From a virus: a stretch of DNA of 28,660 bases. Positions 2,236-18,208 of this stretch are shown here, piece after piece (position 1 is the stretch's first letter; each line of letters starts with the position of its first letter). A program made the position numbers and the translations under genes. Where the stretch lies: the IMG/VR virus record IMGVR_UViG_3300011269_000012, positions 1 through 28,660 of that record; one strand, written 5' to 3'. The notes under the pieces are model-generated. The model was not told the origin of the DNA. It searched no databases and saw only the letters and a program-made list of their open reading frames with translations.

Positions 2236-4006
2236 GTTCAAGCGCTACATCAAGCACCTGAAAATCCAGTCTCGCGATTATGGTCGGGTTCCTCTTCGTT
2301 TGCTCGGCAGTCAGCAATATATTTTGAATGAGGTCGCCAAGGGCCTCAACGAAGGGATTACGACTTTCGTTGTCCTTAAGGGCCGGCAACAAGGATCGAC
2401 GACGCTCTTTCTTGCGGTCGATTTTTTCTACGCCCTTGCACATCCTGGCTTGCTCGGCACCTTCATCCTGCACGAGGAAAAGGCGCTCGCGAAGTGGCGC
2501 GCTCAGATTGAAATTCAGCTTGCATCAATGCCGAAGAAAGTTGACGGCAAGAGGTTCCGTCCGAATGTCATAAGCCACAACCGTAATATACTATTGTTCG
2601 ATAATGACTCTAGTTTCTCGTACCTCATAGGTGGAGTTAACGAAAACAGCGGTGGTGGTTTAGGGCGCTCTCTTGCTGCTAATTACGTCCACGGGACGGA
2701 GGTCGCGTTCTACGCAAACGAGGATGATCTAAAGGCGTTCAAGTCGTCAATTTCGTCTATTTACACGCACCGTCTGCAAATATGGGAGAGCACCGCAAAT
2801 GGATTTAATCACTTCTATGATCAGTGTCAGTCAGCAAAAACGTCAAAAACTGTACGTTTTATTTTCTCTGGATGGTGGCGAGACGAACGAAACCAGTTCC
2901 ACGTGCGCGACAATCGCTTCAAAATATTTGCTCCCAATAATAAACTATCGCAACTTGAGCGTGAACGCGTGCGTGCAGTTCGGGAACAATATCAGTTCGA
3001 TATCAGCCTGCAACAACTAGCATGGTATCGATGGAAGATGGAGGATGAATTTGCAAACGATCAATCTATAATGGATCAAGAGTTCCCTTTTACTGAAGAT
3101 GATGCATTCCAATCTACGGGATCGAAGTATTTCACCGCTCCGGTGCTCACACAGATTACGCGAGACGCTCATAAGCGCCCGTTTCAAACTTACCGCTACC
3201 GCATGACACGACGATGGGAGGAAATCGACGTTTATCAAGTCACCGATCTTCGCGCGGAACTTAGGGTATGGAAACATAGTTCAAGATTTGGTAGTTATAT
3301 TATTTCGTGCGATCCTAATTTCGGATCGTCTGATCAAGCGGACAACTGTTGCATTCAAGTGTGGAGAGCATTTGCAGAATGTATAGAGCAAGTAGCGGAA
3401 TATTGCACTTCTGTCTTTTCGACTTATCAAACAGCGTGGGTCGTGGCGCACCTCGCTGGTTTCTATGGTCAAAAAGACAGCCGCGTCATACTGGAAATAA
3501 ATGGCGCAGGAAAGGATGTATTCGAGGAACTGAAAAGGCTTAAGGATCATCTTGTTCAAATATCACCAACGTCAGACAATTACGAATTGAAAAACTGCCT
3601 GAAAAACGTAAGGGATTTCTATTATCAGAGAATTGATTCAATGTCAGGTGAGTTGGCGTATCATTTAGTAATGACAGATGACATTAAACGGTATATCATG
3701 TCTGGATTCAAAAGCGGCGTTGAATTAGGAAGGGCTGATGTAAGTTCATTGCCGCTTATCGAAGAAATGCGCCGTTTGGTGAACAACGAAGGGTCTATAG
3801 CCGCAGAAGGTGGTGGAAACGATGATCGTGTTGTTGCTGCGGCGATGGCCTACCATTGCTGGCGGAGGTGGTTGCAACCAATGTTGATTGGTCTCAGAAT
3901 GACACGCGAGAAGGCGCTTGAAATCGACAAACGCGGCGGCGATCAGCCGATTGACAAGTTGATTTCCAACTACCTCCGTCGCAGCAATATAACGGTGCCA
4001 ACGTGA
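2165..4006 (+). CDS. terL: Terminase large subunit (TerL), 613 aa
   Basis: ATP-driven packaging motor and headful or cohesive-end nuclease. The ATPase domain carries the Walker A-type motif KGRQQGST (residues 72-79), a Walker B-like YVHGTEVAFY (174-183, acidic residue E179) and the coupling motif STANG (209-213). The RNase H-like nuclease domain shows its expected acids: D383 in IISCDPNFG, E444 in VILEINGAG, and the D553/D554 pair in GNDDRVVAAA. The length is normal for the family. The ATG at 2165 has GGTGG a few bases upstream. The start lies inside the end of the preceding ORF, and the stop overlaps the next start by GTGA. The usual portal gene follows within about 600 bases. Confidence 0.95.
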   Translation: MKSARRQNFKIGAPTKVAKFPLAKFKRYIKHLKIQSRDYGRVPLRLLGSQQYILNEVAKGLNEGITTFVVLKGRQQGSTTLFLAVDFFYALAHPGLLGTFILHEEKALAKWRAQIEIQLASMPKKVDGKRFRPNVISHNRNILLFDNDSSFSYLIGGVNENSGGGLGRSLAANYVHGTEVAFYANEDDLKAFKSSISSIYTHRLQIWESTANGFNHFYDQCQSAKTSKTVRFIFSGWWRDERNQFHVRDNRFKIFAPNNKLSQLERERVRAVREQYQFDISLQQLAWYRWKMEDEFANDQSIMDQEFPFTEDDAFQSTGSKYFTAPVLTQITRDAHKRPFQTYRYRMTRRWEEIDVYQVTDLRAELRVWKHSSRFGSYIISCDPNFGSSDQADNCCIQVWRAFAECIEQVAEYCTSVFSTYQTAWVVAHLAGFYGQKDSRVILEINGAGKDVFEELKRLKDHLVQISPTSDNYELKNCLKNVRDFYYQRIDSMSGELAYHLVMTDDIKRYIMSGFKSGVELGRADVSSLPLIEEMRRLVNNEGSIAAEGGGNDDRVVAAAMAYHCWRRWLQPMLIGLRMTREKALEIDKRGGDQPIDKLISNYLRRSNITVPT

Positions 4007-4164
4007 ACTCAATTGAAACTGCGCCAAAAGATCGCCGTATAATCGTTTATGCGCCACCTCGCGACGGATTGTCGGACCTTGTATCATTTTGTCAATGGCA
4101 CAAGGATGCAGGTTTTTGCATTGACGAATTACGGGAAGCTACACATTGGATTGAAATTCCATGA
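4003..4164 (+). CDS. DUF551-like small phage protein, 53 aa
   Basis: Begins at GTG 4003, overlapping the TerL stop (GTGA), and ends in an ATGA overlap with the next gene. The pattern SIETAPKD near the start, IIVYAPP, a central FCQWH and the terminal ATHWIEIP is the signature of the short DUF551-type proteins widespread in phages (APKDG...ILVY...W...ATHW.PLP). The usual glycine after KD is replaced here. The function of the family is unknown. Its tight coupling to TerL says only that it belongs to the late operon. Confidence 0.75.
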   Translation: MNSIETAPKDRRIIVYAPPRDGLSDLVSFCQWHKDAGFCIDELREATHWIEIP

Positions 4165-4637
4165 TTTCTCGCGACTGGCGGTGCCTCAATGACCGATGTG
4201 GCGAAACGTTCCACTCGTTTGCGAACGACAATCCGCCATGTCCTGCTTGCGGGTGCGTCCGGGTTGGTTGGATACCTGGGGGTGGCCATGTTAATTCTAT
4301 TGCACCACGCATGGACGCTCGCATCCGTAGTATTGCTGACCAGCACGGCCTTACTAATCTTAACAGCCCTTCTAATTCGCGACTTAATCGTGCAATGCCG
4401 CGCGCACCAATCCATCCAACGGTCCCCGGAGTAACTCATAATTGGGGATTCGGGATATCAAGCCCGATCCCGGATGCACACCATCCCAACGCGGGAGCCA
4501 TCGCATCGTTTTCCGCAACGTCCGTCTCAAATAAAGTGGTGGTTGGAGATTCGGCGCAAAGCCGTGATAGCAGGTGGCTACCTGGACCACTCGCAAACTC
4601 CGTTATCGTGGCGCGAACAAAACAGCGTGGAATATGA
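4161..4637 (+). CDS. N-terminal zinc-ribbon protein, 158 aa
   Basis: Starts at ATG 4161 (ATGA overlap) and ends at 4637, overlapping the portal start. Residues 1-43 form a zinc ribbon of the FmdB-like kind: C8-x4-C13 and C27-x2-C30, followed by the aromatic/glycine strand GWIPGGGHV. The rest is Pro/Ser/Asn-rich and looks extended, with SRLNRAMPRAP in the middle. Small zinc-ribbon proteins of this shape sit between TerL and portal in many phages; the role is unknown. The same DNA carries, in another frame (4189-4434), a two-membrane-segment ORF discussed as a finding. Confidence 0.72.
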   Translation: MISRDWRCLNDRCGETFHSFANDNPPCPACGCVRVGWIPGGGHVNSIAPRMDARIRSIADQHGLTNLNSPSNSRLNRAMPRAPIHPTVPGVTHNWGFGISSPIPDAHHPNAGAIASFSATSVSNKVVVGDSAQSRDSRWLPGPLANSVIVARTKQRGI

Positions 4638-6370
4638 TCCTTCCAACCGAAAAAGAAGAACTACAAAAGTGCGTGCGCTACCTTATTGAGCGCTGTCTTT
4701 CGACACGTGATGAACGGGATAAAATATATCAGTGGCGTGAAAAATATTACCTATTCGGTAACTCAGGTTTGGAGCAGGCCCGCGTCAATGTCATCAATAG
4801 TCACCTTGATCTTGTGACTTCGTTTCTGTACGCGCCAGACCATGCGTTTTTCCACATCGCAGCGGAGAACACCGAAGACGAATTGTCGATCCTGAAAGCG
4901 CAAGCATTGCAGGATGATTTCAATGAGGATTTCCAGGACTGCGGTATTTCAGAGGCGATCATGGACGCAATCCCGTGGTCGTTGGTTTACGACACGATAC
5001 TCACCAAACAGGGATGGAATCGCGACAAAGGCGAATGGTTTCTTGAGTTGGTTCCTCCGCATAATTTCGGCGTTTACCGGGAGGACATCAAGGACTTGGA
5101 TAGCCAAAGTTGTTTTGTGCATACGTATTTTATCGAGTATCAAGAGGCGGTCGGGAAACTTATTTTGGCCGGCAAGGATGACGAAATAGAGCGGCTTAAG
5201 GTGACGCACACCGCGGCCATGTCGCCATTCCCTGAAATGCTTCAGAGAATGATCATTTCAGGATCGACCGGAGCAAGCTTAAGCGGGACTCTGTTTGGTC
5301 AGGTTAATCCTGACTATGCTCCAACAGCAACTTATCAGGCAAAGTCGTCCGTCCCGCTTGTGAGGTGGAATGAGCTTTGGGTGTGGGATGACCGCACGAC
5401 AGATTATCGAACGATTCACGTCCTTGAGCCTGATATTATGGTCGGTGATAGTGTAGATACAATAAATCTATATAAAAAGGCGACATCTAACGTCGTTGAT
5501 TTATTCGGCCGGCTTAAGGCCGGAGAGAAAATATCAGATTCAAACCCATTCTATCCGGGGGTGCACCCATTCTCAAAAATACAACCATACACCAAGTATA
5601 ACTACTTTTGGGGTAAGGCACATATCGACGTTCTCATTCCCCTGCAAGATTGGCTATTGCAGCGTATAGACCAGATTGACGACATCCTTGATCGCCAGGC
5701 AGACCCGGCGAAAGTCGGTTCCGGTTTCCTTGGCTTGAGCGAGGAAAAGATGGCCGCTTTTGGTGGTGCTGGATCGTATCTATTCGACCAACTTCCACAG
5801 GCGGCAGTAAAGGAACTGGCCCCCGATATGCCGCCCGACATTTTCGCAGAGTACAAAGAGATTAAGGGCGAGTTTCTGGAGGCGTCTGGCCTTACGGAGG
5901 TTGTTGCCGGCCACAGCGAACGGGGTGTCCGATCCAGGCAGCACGCACAAGACTTAAAGAAATCCGGTTCCGGTCGCATCAAGAAGGCGGCGCTCGCTAT
6001 CGAGCCAGCTTTGGTGAAAATCGGAGACATCGGCCTCAAGTTGAAGATGGCTCACGACGACGACAAGTTGCGGACCGCGCCTGATGAGAATGACAAATCA
6101 CACGAGTTTTTTCCGGGCGAGGCCGGCAACGTCAAAATGCGGGTGGACGGACATTCTCACTCGCCGCTGTTTGGTGACGAGGCCCGCGAGATGGCAATGG
6201 TCTATCGCAAGTTCGGTACGATCGACGACGAAGATTTCATCCGCATGACCAACCCACCGTCTCGCGATAACCTCCTGCACTCGATACACAAGCGGAAGCG
6301 GCAGCAAAAGAAGATGGCGCAGCAACACCCGGAATTGCTTGCAAAGCAGGCCGGTGGAAAGAAAAAATGA
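4634..6370 (+). CDS. Portal protein, 578 aa
   Basis: Forms the dodecameric ring at one capsid vertex through which TerL drives DNA. Identification rests on position (directly after TerL and before coat), length, and portal-like content: an N-terminal helical part with YYLFGNSGLEQARVNVINSH, a central mixed alpha/beta wing, the stem-like LIPLQDWLLQRIDQIDDILD, and a long charged C-terminal helix ending in KRKRQQKKMAQQHPELLAKQ. I chose ATG 4634 because it makes an ATGA overlap with the upstream stop, like most junctions here; an in-frame ATG at 4574 would add 20 Arg/Trp-rich residues read from the middle of that gene. It overlaps the next gene by ATGA. Confidence 0.88.
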   Translation: MILPTEKEELQKCVRYLIERCLSTRDERDKIYQWREKYYLFGNSGLEQARVNVINSHLDLVTSFLYAPDHAFFHIAAENTEDELSILKAQALQDDFNEDFQDCGISEAIMDAIPWSLVYDTILTKQGWNRDKGEWFLELVPPHNFGVYREDIKDLDSQSCFVHTYFIEYQEAVGKLILAGKDDEIERLKVTHTAAMSPFPEMLQRMIISGSTGASLSGTLFGQVNPDYAPTATYQAKSSVPLVRWNELWVWDDRTTDYRTIHVLEPDIMVGDSVDTINLYKKATSNVVDLFGRLKAGEKISDSNPFYPGVHPFSKIQPYTKYNYFWGKAHIDVLIPLQDWLLQRIDQIDDILDRQADPAKVGSGFLGLSEEKMAAFGGAGSYLFDQLPQAAVKELAPDMPPDIFAEYKEIKGEFLEASGLTEVVAGHSERGVRSRQHAQDLKKSGSGRIKKAALAIEPALVKIGDIGLKLKMAHDDDKLRTAPDENDKSHEFFPGEAGNVKMRVDGHSHSPLFGDEAREMAMVYRKFGTIDDEDFIRMTNPPSRDNLLHSIHKRKRQQKKMAQQHPELLAKQAGGKKK

Positions 6371-9410: not shown

Positions 9411-10424
9411 GTGCCCCAATTCGGAAGTGGAATCATCCCGTCACAGGGGCCGATTACGCAAGAGCTGACGGCTGTTGTCCGACGTGCTTTCATGCCCCGC
9501 GTCTACGTGCAGATTTGGAAGTCCGCGCCCCTGATTTGCGCGCTCCTATCTGCGGCGCAGGTCGCGAGCGGCGGCCTCTCTCCGATCACCGCGCCCGTGC
9601 AAGGGACGCCGATGGTGGCCGGTCAATGGACCGACTACAGCGGCAGTTTCCAACAGCCAGGTGCGATCCCCGGAATTCAGAATGCCGAGTTTAACCTCAA
9701 GGCGTTCGTCACTCCGATTCCGTTCCTCGGTTTTGAGGGATTGGTGCAGGTCGATTACAGCATTGTTCCGTTGATCGACGCGAGGTTTAACGATGCGACC
9801 AACGTCACCATCGACGCCATGGCAACTGCGTTATTCAATAACGTGGCTAATACTGCGCAGTTGGTCGGACTACCGGGTGCAATTGACGATGGAACTTTCC
9901 TCAATTCCTATGGCGGGATTCCTCGTCTCACAAACCAGTTTTGGAAATCCACGTTTGTCAACAACACCGGCAACGTAATTCCAACGCGAAATCTGATGAT
10001 TCAGTATATCGCCCAGGTTACTAAAACCACGGGCGAAATGCCGACAATAGGGATTATGGGAGCTGGCACTTGGGCGCTTTTGGCCGAAGATTTCACGCCG
10101 CAGGAACGGTACAATATCAACCCGTCCGACAAGTTGGATTCCGCAAATTTCGTCGGACATTCATCGTTCCAGGCGTTGGATATCGCGGGCATTCCGTTCT
10201 ATGCGGATGTCTACTGCCCGGAGGGCACCATTTACTTGATCAACACAAGCTACCTGAATTTGTTCCTGCACGAACGCGCTGCGTTTTCATTCTCCGGTTT
10301 CGAGAGCACCCTTCCGAACAATCAGTTCGGGTGGATTAGCGCAATCCTGTCGTTGCTTGAGGTCGTGAACGTCAAACCGAAATGCCACGGCAAGTTTTCC
10401 GGTCTGCAATTCCTTCCAATTTGA
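9411..10424 (+). CDS. Major capsid (coat) protein, 337 aa
   Basis: GTG 9411 follows AGGAGG, which overlaps the scaffold stop. Length, position after scaffold and the mix of strands with few charged clusters fit an HK97-fold coat subunit of the P22-like branch. The N-terminal arm and E-loop-like part run to about residue 100, and a spine-like helix (FNDATNVTIDAMATALFNNV) lies around 126-145. The A-domain part includes LMIQYIAQVTKTTGEM, GAGTWALLAEDF and ALDIAGIPFYADVYCPEG. The C-terminus is KCHGKFSGLQFLPI. The next gene is a truncated paralogue of residues about 187-278 and 322-337. No maturation protease gene is seen nearby, as in P22. Confidence 0.85.
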   Translation: MPQFGSGIIPSQGPITQELTAVVRRAFMPRVYVQIWKSAPLICALLSAAQVASGGLSPITAPVQGTPMVAGQWTDYSGSFQQPGAIPGIQNAEFNLKAFVTPIPFLGFEGLVQVDYSIVPLIDARFNDATNVTIDAMATALFNNVANTAQLVGLPGAIDDGTFLNSYGGIPRLTNQFWKSTFVNNTGNVIPTRNLMIQYIAQVTKTTGEMPTIGIMGAGTWALLAEDFTPQERYNINPSDKLDSANFVGHSSFQALDIAGIPFYADVYCPEGTIYLINTSYLNLFLHERAAFSFSGFESTLPNNQFGWISAILSLLEVVNVKPKCHGKFSGLQFLPI

Positions 10425-10433
10425 GGTGACGCT

Positions 10434-10826
10434 ATGGCGACGCGTAGAGATTTCATTGTAGGGTCGCTGGCCTCTCTTGCGGCAATTCCAAGTCTGTCCA
10501 CTGCTACCGGAGAGCCGATCAAGCCTACGTGTCATTTGATGATTCGCTATATCGCCAGCGTCACCAAGCAATCCGGTCAAATACCTGAATACGCGGTGAT
10601 GGGTCTTGGTACGTGGGCCATGTTGGCGGAAGATTTTGCGCCGCAGACATTAGCGCCATCTGATGACCGTCTATCCATTACGGCAGACGGTCATCTTGTA
10701 ATCGAGATTGCCGGCATCCCGTTCTGCGCAGTTGCGGAGTGTGAGGAAGGGTGCGTTATCTTGGTGCATCCCGATAACCCCAAGGCTTGCGGAAAATTCA
10801 GCGGCCTCGACTACATAAAAATCTGA
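10434..10826 (+). CDS. Truncated coat-protein paralogue with Tat-like signal, 130 aa
   Basis: Residues 26-130 align with the C-terminal part of the coat protein encoded just upstream. Over residues 35-71 I count 24 identities in 37 (LMIRYIASVTKQSGQIP against LMIQYIAQVTKTTGEMP; GTWAMLAEDF against GTWALLAEDF). The match resumes at IAGIPF, CEEG and CGKFSGL. Coat residues about 279-321 and everything before 187 are absent. In their place is a 25-residue N-terminus, MATRRDFIVGSLASLAAIPS, which fits a twin-arginine signal (TRRDF, then a mild hydrophobic core, then STATG). It has five cysteines, four of them not in the coat protein. The stop/ribosome-site context TGAGGT is the same as after the coat gene, suggesting tandem duplication. 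GAGGTGA precedes the ATG. Confidence 0.85.
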   Translation: MATRRDFIVGSLASLAAIPSLSTATGEPIKPTCHLMIRYIASVTKQSGQIPEYAVMGLGTWAMLAEDFAPQTLAPSDDRLSITADGHLVIEIAGIPFCAVAECEEGCVILVHPDNPKACGKFSGLDYIKI

Positions 10827-10837
10827 GGTAACTCGCC

Positions 10838-12025
10838 ATGGCGCAGATGAGAGGCTTTTTTCCGCTTCCGTTCAGTGGCCCGCAAATCAGCGGCACGCCA
10901 ACCGAAGTGATGTTGATCCCAGGCGGGATTTACTACCCGCCAGCCGGGGAATATGTGGTTACCACGGGATCGCAGACCGTTATTCAATGGTGGGATCCGT
11001 CCAACGCTATTTGGAGAAATTACGCCGGGCCAAACACATTCGAGCAAATTTCAACAGACGGTGCGAACTACCGTCTTGTGAACATGTCGGGTTGCGTCGC
11101 TGGCGCGCTGATCACGAATGCCGGCTCCGGTGGCGTGAACGGCATTGGCCCGAATCAAACCGGGTCGTCGGTCACCTTCGCGGCCCCCGGCGCTGGTGGT
11201 GTCACAGCGACCGCGCAGGGCTACGTGGTGGTCGGTGGTACAGTGCCCGCCCCTACGGTCACGCAGGGCGGTTCTGGCTTCCTGGTTCCTCCTACGATTG
11301 CCTGCGACCCGCCGCCTCCCGGTGGCGTGCAGGCGACATTCATCGCGACCATATCCGCGGCCGGCGTGATCACGGGCGTGACGCAGGTCAACCCCGGTGC
11401 GGGTTACACGTCGATCCCGCAGTTTTATATCATCCCGACGTACCAATTCTATCCGGGTGCAATCCGGTTCCCTGGCGACACACCGCAGACGATCCCAGCC
11501 CCCGGCCTCATCAATCCGGCAAACGCTTGGCAGGGATCTCCGTTCCAGGCCAACCTCATTTCCGGTACGGCCGGCGCGCTACTGACGGGTGTCGCACTTA
11601 CCGGCTCCGGCACGCTCACCGCAATTGTGATGACGTATTTTGGCAACGGCTACACGGGCGCGACAGTTCCGGCGATTTCGTTCGGTGGAACCTCTCTTGG
11701 TGCGGCGGCAGCTACGGCCATCATGTCGATGTGCCTCAACACCACCACGGTCACGACAAGCGCGGGCGCTGGATTTGTCGTTGGTACGGTCGCCGAAACC
11801 GACGTTGCTTTGGTGGCATCGGTGAACAACAACAACACGTTTTTCCCGCGCCCAGCCCGTGGCATCATGACATCAACGGCCGGCGCGTTTACCGCACAAG
11901 ACCCTGGGTTTGGTTTCCAGAAAGCGGCGCTCAGCGAAGTTGGTGGCACCACGGCGGCGGCGATCACAACATCGCAGATTGGCGGCATTAACGACGTGTC
12001 CGTCCTCCAGCCGATGGTGCAGTAA
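10838..12025 (+). CDS. Glycine-rich beta protein: head fibre or decoration candidate, 395 aa
   Basis: ATG 10838 has GAGGT upstream in the same context as the two preceding genes. Residues 1-85 look like a distinct N-terminal domain (MLIPGGIYYPPAGEYVVTTG, WWDPSNAIWRNYAG). The middle holds repeats of a beta module with G[ASN]G[YF] turns: GGSGFLVPPTI (144-154), GAGYTSIPQF (187-196) and GNGYTGATVPAISFGG (269-284), plus FAAPGAGGVTATAQ (114-127). The end is Thr/Ala/Gly-rich. Its place after coat suggests a capsid-surface or head-fibre protein; a tail role is not excluded. Related modules occur in the adaptor (12732) and the tail-hub protein (14115). Confidence 0.65.
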   Translation: MAQMRGFFPLPFSGPQISGTPTEVMLIPGGIYYPPAGEYVVTTGSQTVIQWWDPSNAIWRNYAGPNTFEQISTDGANYRLVNMSGCVAGALITNAGSGGVNGIGPNQTGSSVTFAAPGAGGVTATAQGYVVVGGTVPAPTVTQGGSGFLVPPTIACDPPPPGGVQATFIATISAAGVITGVTQVNPGAGYTSIPQFYIIPTYQFYPGAIRFPGDTPQTIPAPGLINPANAWQGSPFQANLISGTAGALLTGVALTGSGTLTAIVMTYFGNGYTGATVPAISFGGTSLGAAAATAIMSMCLNTTTVTTSAGAGFVVGTVAETDVALVASVNNNNTFFPRPARGIMTSTAGAFTAQDPGFGFQKAALSEVGGTTAAAITTSQIGGINDVSVLQPMVQ

Positions 12026-17385: not shown

Positions 17386-17735
17386 GCACTGAATTTTCCT
17401 TTAACCTTTTCCAATTCGGAGACGCTGCGGGAAGCGGCGAATTTCTTGTTGGTCATTTCCGGCAGCACCTTCGCTACAACGCCGTTCTCGCAGCCCGCAC
17501 GCCTGCGGTCCTGATACCGGAGTTCCCCATTCTCAACATGGAAGCCGGTCCGATTGGGCGTCGTGACTGGCTTGATTCCCATGAAAAGTGGCACGAACAA
17601 ATCCGACCGTACGCCAACGTTACGGGCATCAACCTATCCGAGGTCGATTTAGACAATGAGACTGCTTTCTATGACTGGTTGAATATCCACGCTGTGGAGC
17701 ACCAAGAATTAGATCAGGCATTCGGAGTTGGGTAA
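17382..17735 (+). CDS. Unknown conserved-type protein, 117 aa
   Basis: Coupled by ATGA to the fibre gene and by TAATG to the GNAT gene. The protein has a regular run of histidines and aromatics: FLVGHFRQHLRYNAVLAART, WLDSHEKWHEQIRPYANVTG, DWLNIHAVEHQELDQAFGVG. Repeated H..H and HxxxH spacing in helices could bind metal or simply pack a helical bundle. I have seen similar small proteins after phage tail genes but know no function. Confidence 0.62.
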   Translation: MSTEFSFNLFQFGDAAGSGEFLVGHFRQHLRYNAVLAARTPAVLIPEFPILNMEAGPIGRRDWLDSHEKWHEQIRPYANVTGINLSEVDLDNETAFYDWLNIHAVEHQELDQAFGVG

Positions 17736-18208
17736 TGCTGCAAGCGGTTCCAGACCTTGAGTTTGTGCGCTACCAGAAAGAAATATTTCCCGGCCCAAAA
17801 AGCGAGTTCGCGCGCCTGTTTGATTTACACGGCCGAGAGGTGCGTGGGAAACCGTTTAATCTTGACTTCAAACGGTATCATCAAATCGAATTCGAGAAGC
17901 GCCTTGTGTGGATCGTGGCGCGGTCAATAGAGACCGGAGCACCGCTCGGCTACGCCTGTTCGTCGTGGTGCCGCGATTTGAACTTTGACGAACGCGTGGC
18001 GTACGACGGTCTTTGGTTTGTGCAAAAGGAATTTCGCCGCTCGGGTGTCGGAAAGACGGTCAAGGTGATGTGTCACACGGAGTTGGCAAAAGCCGGTGTG
18101 GTGAGGATTTGTGACAGCATTAGGGGCGCGTACAATCACCCGACGTTGATGCAAGATATTGGCTTCGAGAAATGGGGAACAAGGTGGACTAAGAATGTCA
18201 ATATATGA
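17735..18208 (+). CDS. GNAT-family N-acetyltransferase, 157 aa
   Basis: ATG 17735 shares one base with the preceding stop. The fold signature is a GNAT: strand ARSIETGAPLGYACSSW, strand VAYDGLWFVQKEFRRSGVGK with the acetyl-CoA loop R-R-S-G-V-G-K after beta4 (residues about 99-105), then helix VKVMCHTELAKAGV, strand ICDSI, and a terminal GFEKWGTRWTKN. Length is normal. Substrate unknown. GNATs of this kind are common in phage tail/late operons, where they may modify a virion or host protein. The last 14 bases overlap the HNH gene. Confidence 0.8.
   Translation: MLQAVPDLEFVRYQKEIFPGPKSEFARLFDLHGREVRGKPFNLDFKRYHQIEFEKRLVWIVARSIETGAPLGYACSSWCRDLNFDERVAYDGLWFVQKEFRRSGVGKTVKVMCHTELAKAGVVRICDSIRGAYNHPTLMQDIGFEKWGTRWTKNVNI

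Follow-up and report, generated by a model that had tools for sequence, protein, structure and literature searches.

A stand-alone A-domain paralogue of a phage coat protein that carries a candidate Tat-type signal

Directly downstream of its major capsid (coat) protein gene, a soil phage was found to carry a small paralogue of that gene, which encodes a free HK97-fold A-domain preceded by a candidate Tat-type signal. The paralogue is a small accessory protein under purifying selection rather than debris. The best explanation for it, to which we assign a probability of roughly 0.5, is that this selected A-domain is exported through the Tat route and acts as an accessory (moron-like) factor in the cell envelope. 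A wider proposal, that a group of soil phages repeatedly carved a free A-domain from the coat gene and that one lineage sends the folded domain to the periplasm by Tat export, is put forward tentatively, at a little under even odds.

The coat gene and its trimmed copy

The window (the whole stretch of DNA analysed, an IMG/VR virus record of 28,660 bases) encodes a terminase, a weakly matching portal and a major capsid protein (Table 1). Among the later genes is one for a GNAT-type acetyltransferase (17735–18208), whose match to PF00583 was just over the cut-off. The coat protein belongs to NCBIfam NF033394 capsid_maj_Podo (107.8 bits vs. a cut-off of 80), matched phrog_9953 (E 4e-24) and was 49% identical to the annotated major capsid proteins of MW202825 and MW202753. 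A host search in bacterial and archaeal genomes returned no relatives of the coat or portal proteins.

The open reading frame of the paralogue starts MATRRDFIVGSLASLAAIPS, as the original prediction had stated. Its product was 40% identical to the coat protein across 136 columns (E 2e-25), and a search of 10,710 six-frame ORFs with a coat profile recovered it (E 7e-19), with matches to coat positions 188–278 and then 322–337; both results bear out the proposal of a cut-down coat paralogue. The numbers given earlier also hold, namely the alignment to coat residues 187–278 and 322–337 and, in the stretch LMI...PQ, the 24 of 37 identical residues, which were counted on the sequences. Judged by sequence, the paralogue is a tandem duplicate of the coat gene trimmed to these two segments, and the N-arm, E-loop, spine helix and P-domain excursion are gone from it. 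While the tandem duplication is upheld by homology, the TGAGGT context that had been offered as its sign was rejected, since a TGAGG stop combined with a ribosome site is common in relatives that lack the paralogue. A scan for promoters and terminators between the coat and paralogue genes found none.

Because the gene that follows the paralogue lies directly 3' of the coat gene in most relatives, the paralogue sits in an insertion slot. The same slot in L004 holds an unrelated ORF of 72 aa (5016–5237), and the spacing in L005 is identical, which points to a site where accessory genes insert.

An HK97 A-domain needs a main block and a closing C-terminal segment, with the P-domain excursion lying between them. 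The two coat pieces of the paralogue are one such A-domain from which the excursion was cut out. The earlier description of the protein as the C-terminal region of the coat was thus correct as to a cut-down coat piece, but the piece is not simply the C-terminal region; it is a complete, foldable A-domain. A model of the paralogue was predicted from an alignment of the paralogues and the coat A-regions and had a mean pLDDT of 65.7; most body residues had values of 70–90, and those of the signal lay below 50. The top structural matches were nearly all HK97-fold proteins and spanned model residues 27–130. Superposition on residues 250–383 of HK97 (1ohg) gave a VIA-align Z of 8.0, and that on 2pk8, a 94-residue protein consisting of the A-domain only, a Z of 7.6 with 88 of the 94 residues aligned and a TM of 0.61 by target. 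A Z near 8 is modest alone and agrees here with the clear sequence homology to the coat protein. Foldseek returned no matches for the model at E ≤ 0.001, and a PDB sequence search with the paralogue gave no convincing match. The whole-coat prediction reached a pLDDT of 29.5, and the A-domain assignment is based on the paralogue model, whose fold matches solved A-domains, together with homology to the coat A-domain.

Table 1. Coordinates of the coat gene, its paralogue and their parts in the window.
Feature	Position	Strand	Description and basis
Parent major capsid (coat) protein	9411..10424	+	337 aa, GTG start
Coat residues 187–278, copied in the paralogue	9969..10244	+	Bulk of the A-domain; profile positions 188–278 match
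Coat residues 322–337, copied in the paralogue	10374..10421	+	Closing C-terminal segment; profile match to paralogue C-terminus, weak alone; GKFSGLxxxxI by eye
Junction, coat to paralogue	10425..10433	+	9 nt; GAGGTGA ribosome-site-like sequence overlaps the coat stop TGA
Stand-alone A-domain paralogue of coat protein	10434..10826	+	130 aa; homology, purifying selection vs. the L003 copy, fold
Candidate Tat-type signal, residues 1–27	10434..10514	+	MATRRDFIVGSLASLAAIPSLSTATGE; PF10518 match, motif pattern
A-domain body, residues 28–130	10515..10823	+	Contains C33, C98, C103, C107 and C119, kept in L003; VIA-align to A-domains
Next gene	10838..12025	+	Virion structural, repeat-bearing; directly after the coat gene in most relatives

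The N-terminal signal and the cysteines

The N-terminus, MATRRDFIVGSLASLAAIPSLSTATG, contains the motif T-R-R-D-F-I followed by 20 uncharged residues, and S-T-A forms a plausible cleavage site that would lie after residue 24. The h-region is moderately hydrophobic (best 11-residue mean hydropathy of 2.2). In the copy on contig L003 the motif reads TRRNFV in place of TRRDFI, so that both have the arginine pair, one variable residue and two hydrophobic residues. Of the 3,751 ORFs in the window and its relatives that are 60 aa or longer, only the window gene and the L003 copy have an RR motif together with a long uncharged stretch. The Pfam family TAT_signal (PF10518) had a single six-frame match in the window, at 10440–10484 (E 0.0035), with a score of 13.8 bits, which is below the curated cut-off of 22.7; the L003 copy gave no match to this family. 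The proposed twin-arginine signal was therefore sustained by its motif and by the constraint on it in L003, but not by the Pfam scores, and on balance the N-terminus of the paralogue probably is a working Tat signal. Two origins of this segment were considered and rejected. An alignment to the coat N-arm (VVRRAFM...), of which the signal could be a remnant, was matched by 271 of 500 and 458 of 500 shuffles, and capture from a plasmid gene found no match.

All five cysteines of the paralogue (positions 33, 98, 103, 107 and 119) are kept in the L003 copy. The original prediction had correctly given their number and the pairing of C103 with coat C269, but had overlooked that C119 lies one residue off coat C325. 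Five cysteines in approximately 103 mature residues compare with 0.79 expected from the other window genes (P ~0.0013). The signal-less paralogues described below have 2 and 3 cysteines, and the enrichment is thus confined to the signalled form. It is compatible with residence in an oxidising compartment or with a metal site, and gives a second hint of export that is independent of the signal motif.

Selection, distribution and origins among relatives

On the L003 contig the gene occupies the corresponding position and is 83.6% identical to the window copy in nucleotides and 81.5% in amino acids. A pair of coat gene and signalled paralogue had been suggested as something to look for in related phages, and it was found here, with the two paralogues 82% identical. 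The presence of the paralogue in two independent records argues against an assembly artefact. Between the two copies, dN/dS was ~0.18 for the whole gene and 0.20 for the signal part. The 18 nucleotide changes in the signal part were distributed 7/0/11 over codon positions 1/2/3, and the lack of any second-position change has a p of ~7e-4 under equal use of the codon positions. The paralogue diverges faster than the coat protein (dN 0.10 vs. 0.009).

Apart from the window, 82 coat-bearing records were searched whole, 50 of them also with an A-domain alignment. Stand-alone A-domains were present in 4 of the 83 records, i.e., the window, L003, L023 and the contig of L046. In L023 the protein is encoded directly 3' of the coat gene and has no signal. 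On the contig of L046 (L087 2004–2342, minus strand) a signal-less protein is encoded ~11 kb from the coat gene, and adjoins a 551-aa DNA ejection protein (phrog_26400, E 2.7e-21). All four paralogues have the same domain start, lack the same coat segment and end on the same C-terminal segment, and the signal was found in the window and L003 copies only. It had been expected that homologues would retain the RR motif and the hydrophobic segment; these are conserved in the one close homologue but absent from the two more distant paralogues, which counts in part against the original reading, and consequently the signal is not general to stand-alone A-domain proteins. When 50,697 annotated phage records were searched with the paralogue, the only matches were at chance level.

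In the tree, the window and L003 copies grouped within the clade formed by the coat proteins of their close relatives (100/99), and the other two were placed elsewhere. No bootstrap tree grouped all four paralogues, and the free tree needs two origins. In pairwise comparison, too, each paralogue scored highest with coat proteins from its own group or one next to it. The AU test did not reject a single origin of the four (p 0.104), a result in which long branches are involved. Two or more separate origins of the trimmed coat gene are thus probable, and the Tat-type signal is confined to a single lineage.

Other pieces of the coat gene were observed as well. L018 (6802–7062) and L088 (1375–1653, contig of L036) encode homologous small proteins, 49% identical to each other, in which part of the coat N-arm (residues ~18–50, RAFMPRxYVQLWK) is fused to a helix of amphipathic appearance and a hydrophobic leader with KR/RR. 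These constitute a second kind of fusion between a leader and a coat fragment, made with a different coat piece. Short ORFs with a coat N-arm segment (~11–50) and no hydrophobic leader were seen in L040 (3098–3298) and L043 (8238–8413), the match in L043 being weak. Coat-gene pieces thus seem to be scattered in these phages. In L025 (~3889–5004) the coat gene is split over two overlapping frames (residues 1–92 and 29/64–337), which reflects a frameshift or an assembly error.

Proposed role and comparison with known systems

As an exported envelope factor, the paralogue would be translated together with the late structural genes, and its A-domain would fold in the cytoplasm before the twin-arginine signal sent the folded domain across the inner membrane. 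In that compartment, disulphide bonding or metal binding could engage the additional cysteines, and the domain would serve as a moron-like accessory in the envelope. A-domains form rings at the centres of capsomers, and the guess that suggests itself most readily is that the exported domain would likewise associate with itself into rings. Counted against export, besides the low Pfam scores and the two signal-less paralogues, are the odd number of cysteines and the assumption that the host has a Tat system, and we are aware of no capsid domain with an envelope role that would serve as a direct precedent. No support was found for the specific functions proposed at the outset, i.e., receptor mask, superinfection exclusion or periplasmic decoy. 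Because incoming capsids stay outside the cell, a periplasmic capsid domain is unlikely to serve in superinfection exclusion by capsid contact.

The same gene could encode a minor capsid or plug protein, whose A-domain would sit in or on capsomer centres or modulate coat assembly in the cytoplasm, and whose N-terminus would be an arm or a membrane tether. This fits its co-oriented position between coat and structural genes, the ring contacts that A-domains form, and the existence of signal-less versions, one of them beside a DNA ejection protein; Ccm, a capsid homologue that occupies pentamers, offers a loose precedent (PMC8569155). However, a protein encoded in 4 of 83 records is not a required capsid part, and without P-domain and E-loop a normal lattice position should be impossible. 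The residue class of the signal, conserved at every second codon position, and the enrichment of cysteines in the signalled form only also speak against a capsid role, and we consider it unlikely. Less likely again is a cytoplasmic decoy or antagonist of capsid-sensing immunity, in which a soluble coat piece would bind a sensor without activating it and the leader would be a membrane anchor or incidental. Coat proteins do set off defences, and CapRel-SJ46 makes contact with the P-domain of the coat as well as with a loop in its A-domain (PMC9712102), but that contact includes P-domain strand beta5, which is missing in the paralogue. The patchy distribution, the signal-less forms and the faster divergence relative to the coat would suit a decoy, whereas export would take the protein out of the compartment in which such sensors work, and there is no known defence system or host for these phages. 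The least probable reading, which we regard as very unlikely, is recombination debris, i.e., a decaying partial duplication that is open by chance. Although short coat-gene fragments do recur (L018, the L036 contig, L040 and L043), the paralogue has kept its frame intact across 16% nucleotide divergence under the low dN/dS given above, has a good ribosome-site context, and shows the exact domain cut in three genomic settings.

Export of a selected A-domain remains our preferred reading. A parent gene and its cut-down copy stand side by side here; such pairs occur in at least two lineages and differ in how far they have diverged, and they make visible the cut that turns a coat protein into a free A-domain. 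Whether a free A-domain folds and assembles alone becomes directly testable. If export is true, the known roles of capsid domains would extend to the cell envelope.

The original prediction knew of no described phage protein of this kind, and in the literature searched we likewise found none. No description of a stand-alone A-domain with an export signal was found there either, which is not proof of novelty, nor was a precedent for a capsid domain as Tat cargo. The N-terminus resembles twin-arginine signal peptides (PF10518) in its T-R-R-D-F-I motif, short n-region, uncharged h-region and plausible S-T-A site, and differs in its score (13.8 vs. the curated 22.7 bits) and in having a capsid domain as cargo. 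CapRel-SJ46 illustrates that coat domains can be ligands outside virion assembly (PMC9712102), but it is a host sensor whereas the paralogue is a phage gene, and its relevance is hypothetical. Ccm of SaPIbov5 is a satellite-borne capsid-protein homologue that alters capsid assembly by taking pentamer positions (PMC8569155). Like the paralogue, it is an additional protein of capsid origin that is presumed to play an accessory role; unlike Ccm, which sits in the shell, the paralogue lacks P-domain and E-loop and has a signal.

The closest structural likeness is to Family 4 (A-domain) encapsulins (PF08967), which are ~100 aa long and consist of the HK97 A-domain alone, e.g., 2PK8 of Pyrococcus furiosus (PMC8346489). 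They are cellular, mostly archaeal proteins, usually encoded beside enzymes (PMC8346489). Their function is open, and they are thought to be derived from viral capsids. The paralogue shares with them an HK97 fold cut to an A-domain of ~100 aa, as reflected in the 2PK8 match (Z 7.6). It gave no match to PF08967 up to E 5 to 10, and its neighbours are coat and virion structural genes in place of the cargo enzyme of the archaeal two-gene operon. In its predicted structure, the paralogue therefore resembles a Family 4 encapsulin without being a member by sequence or gene context; in contrast to that family, it is encoded by a phage, next to the parent coat gene, and bears a predicted export signal.
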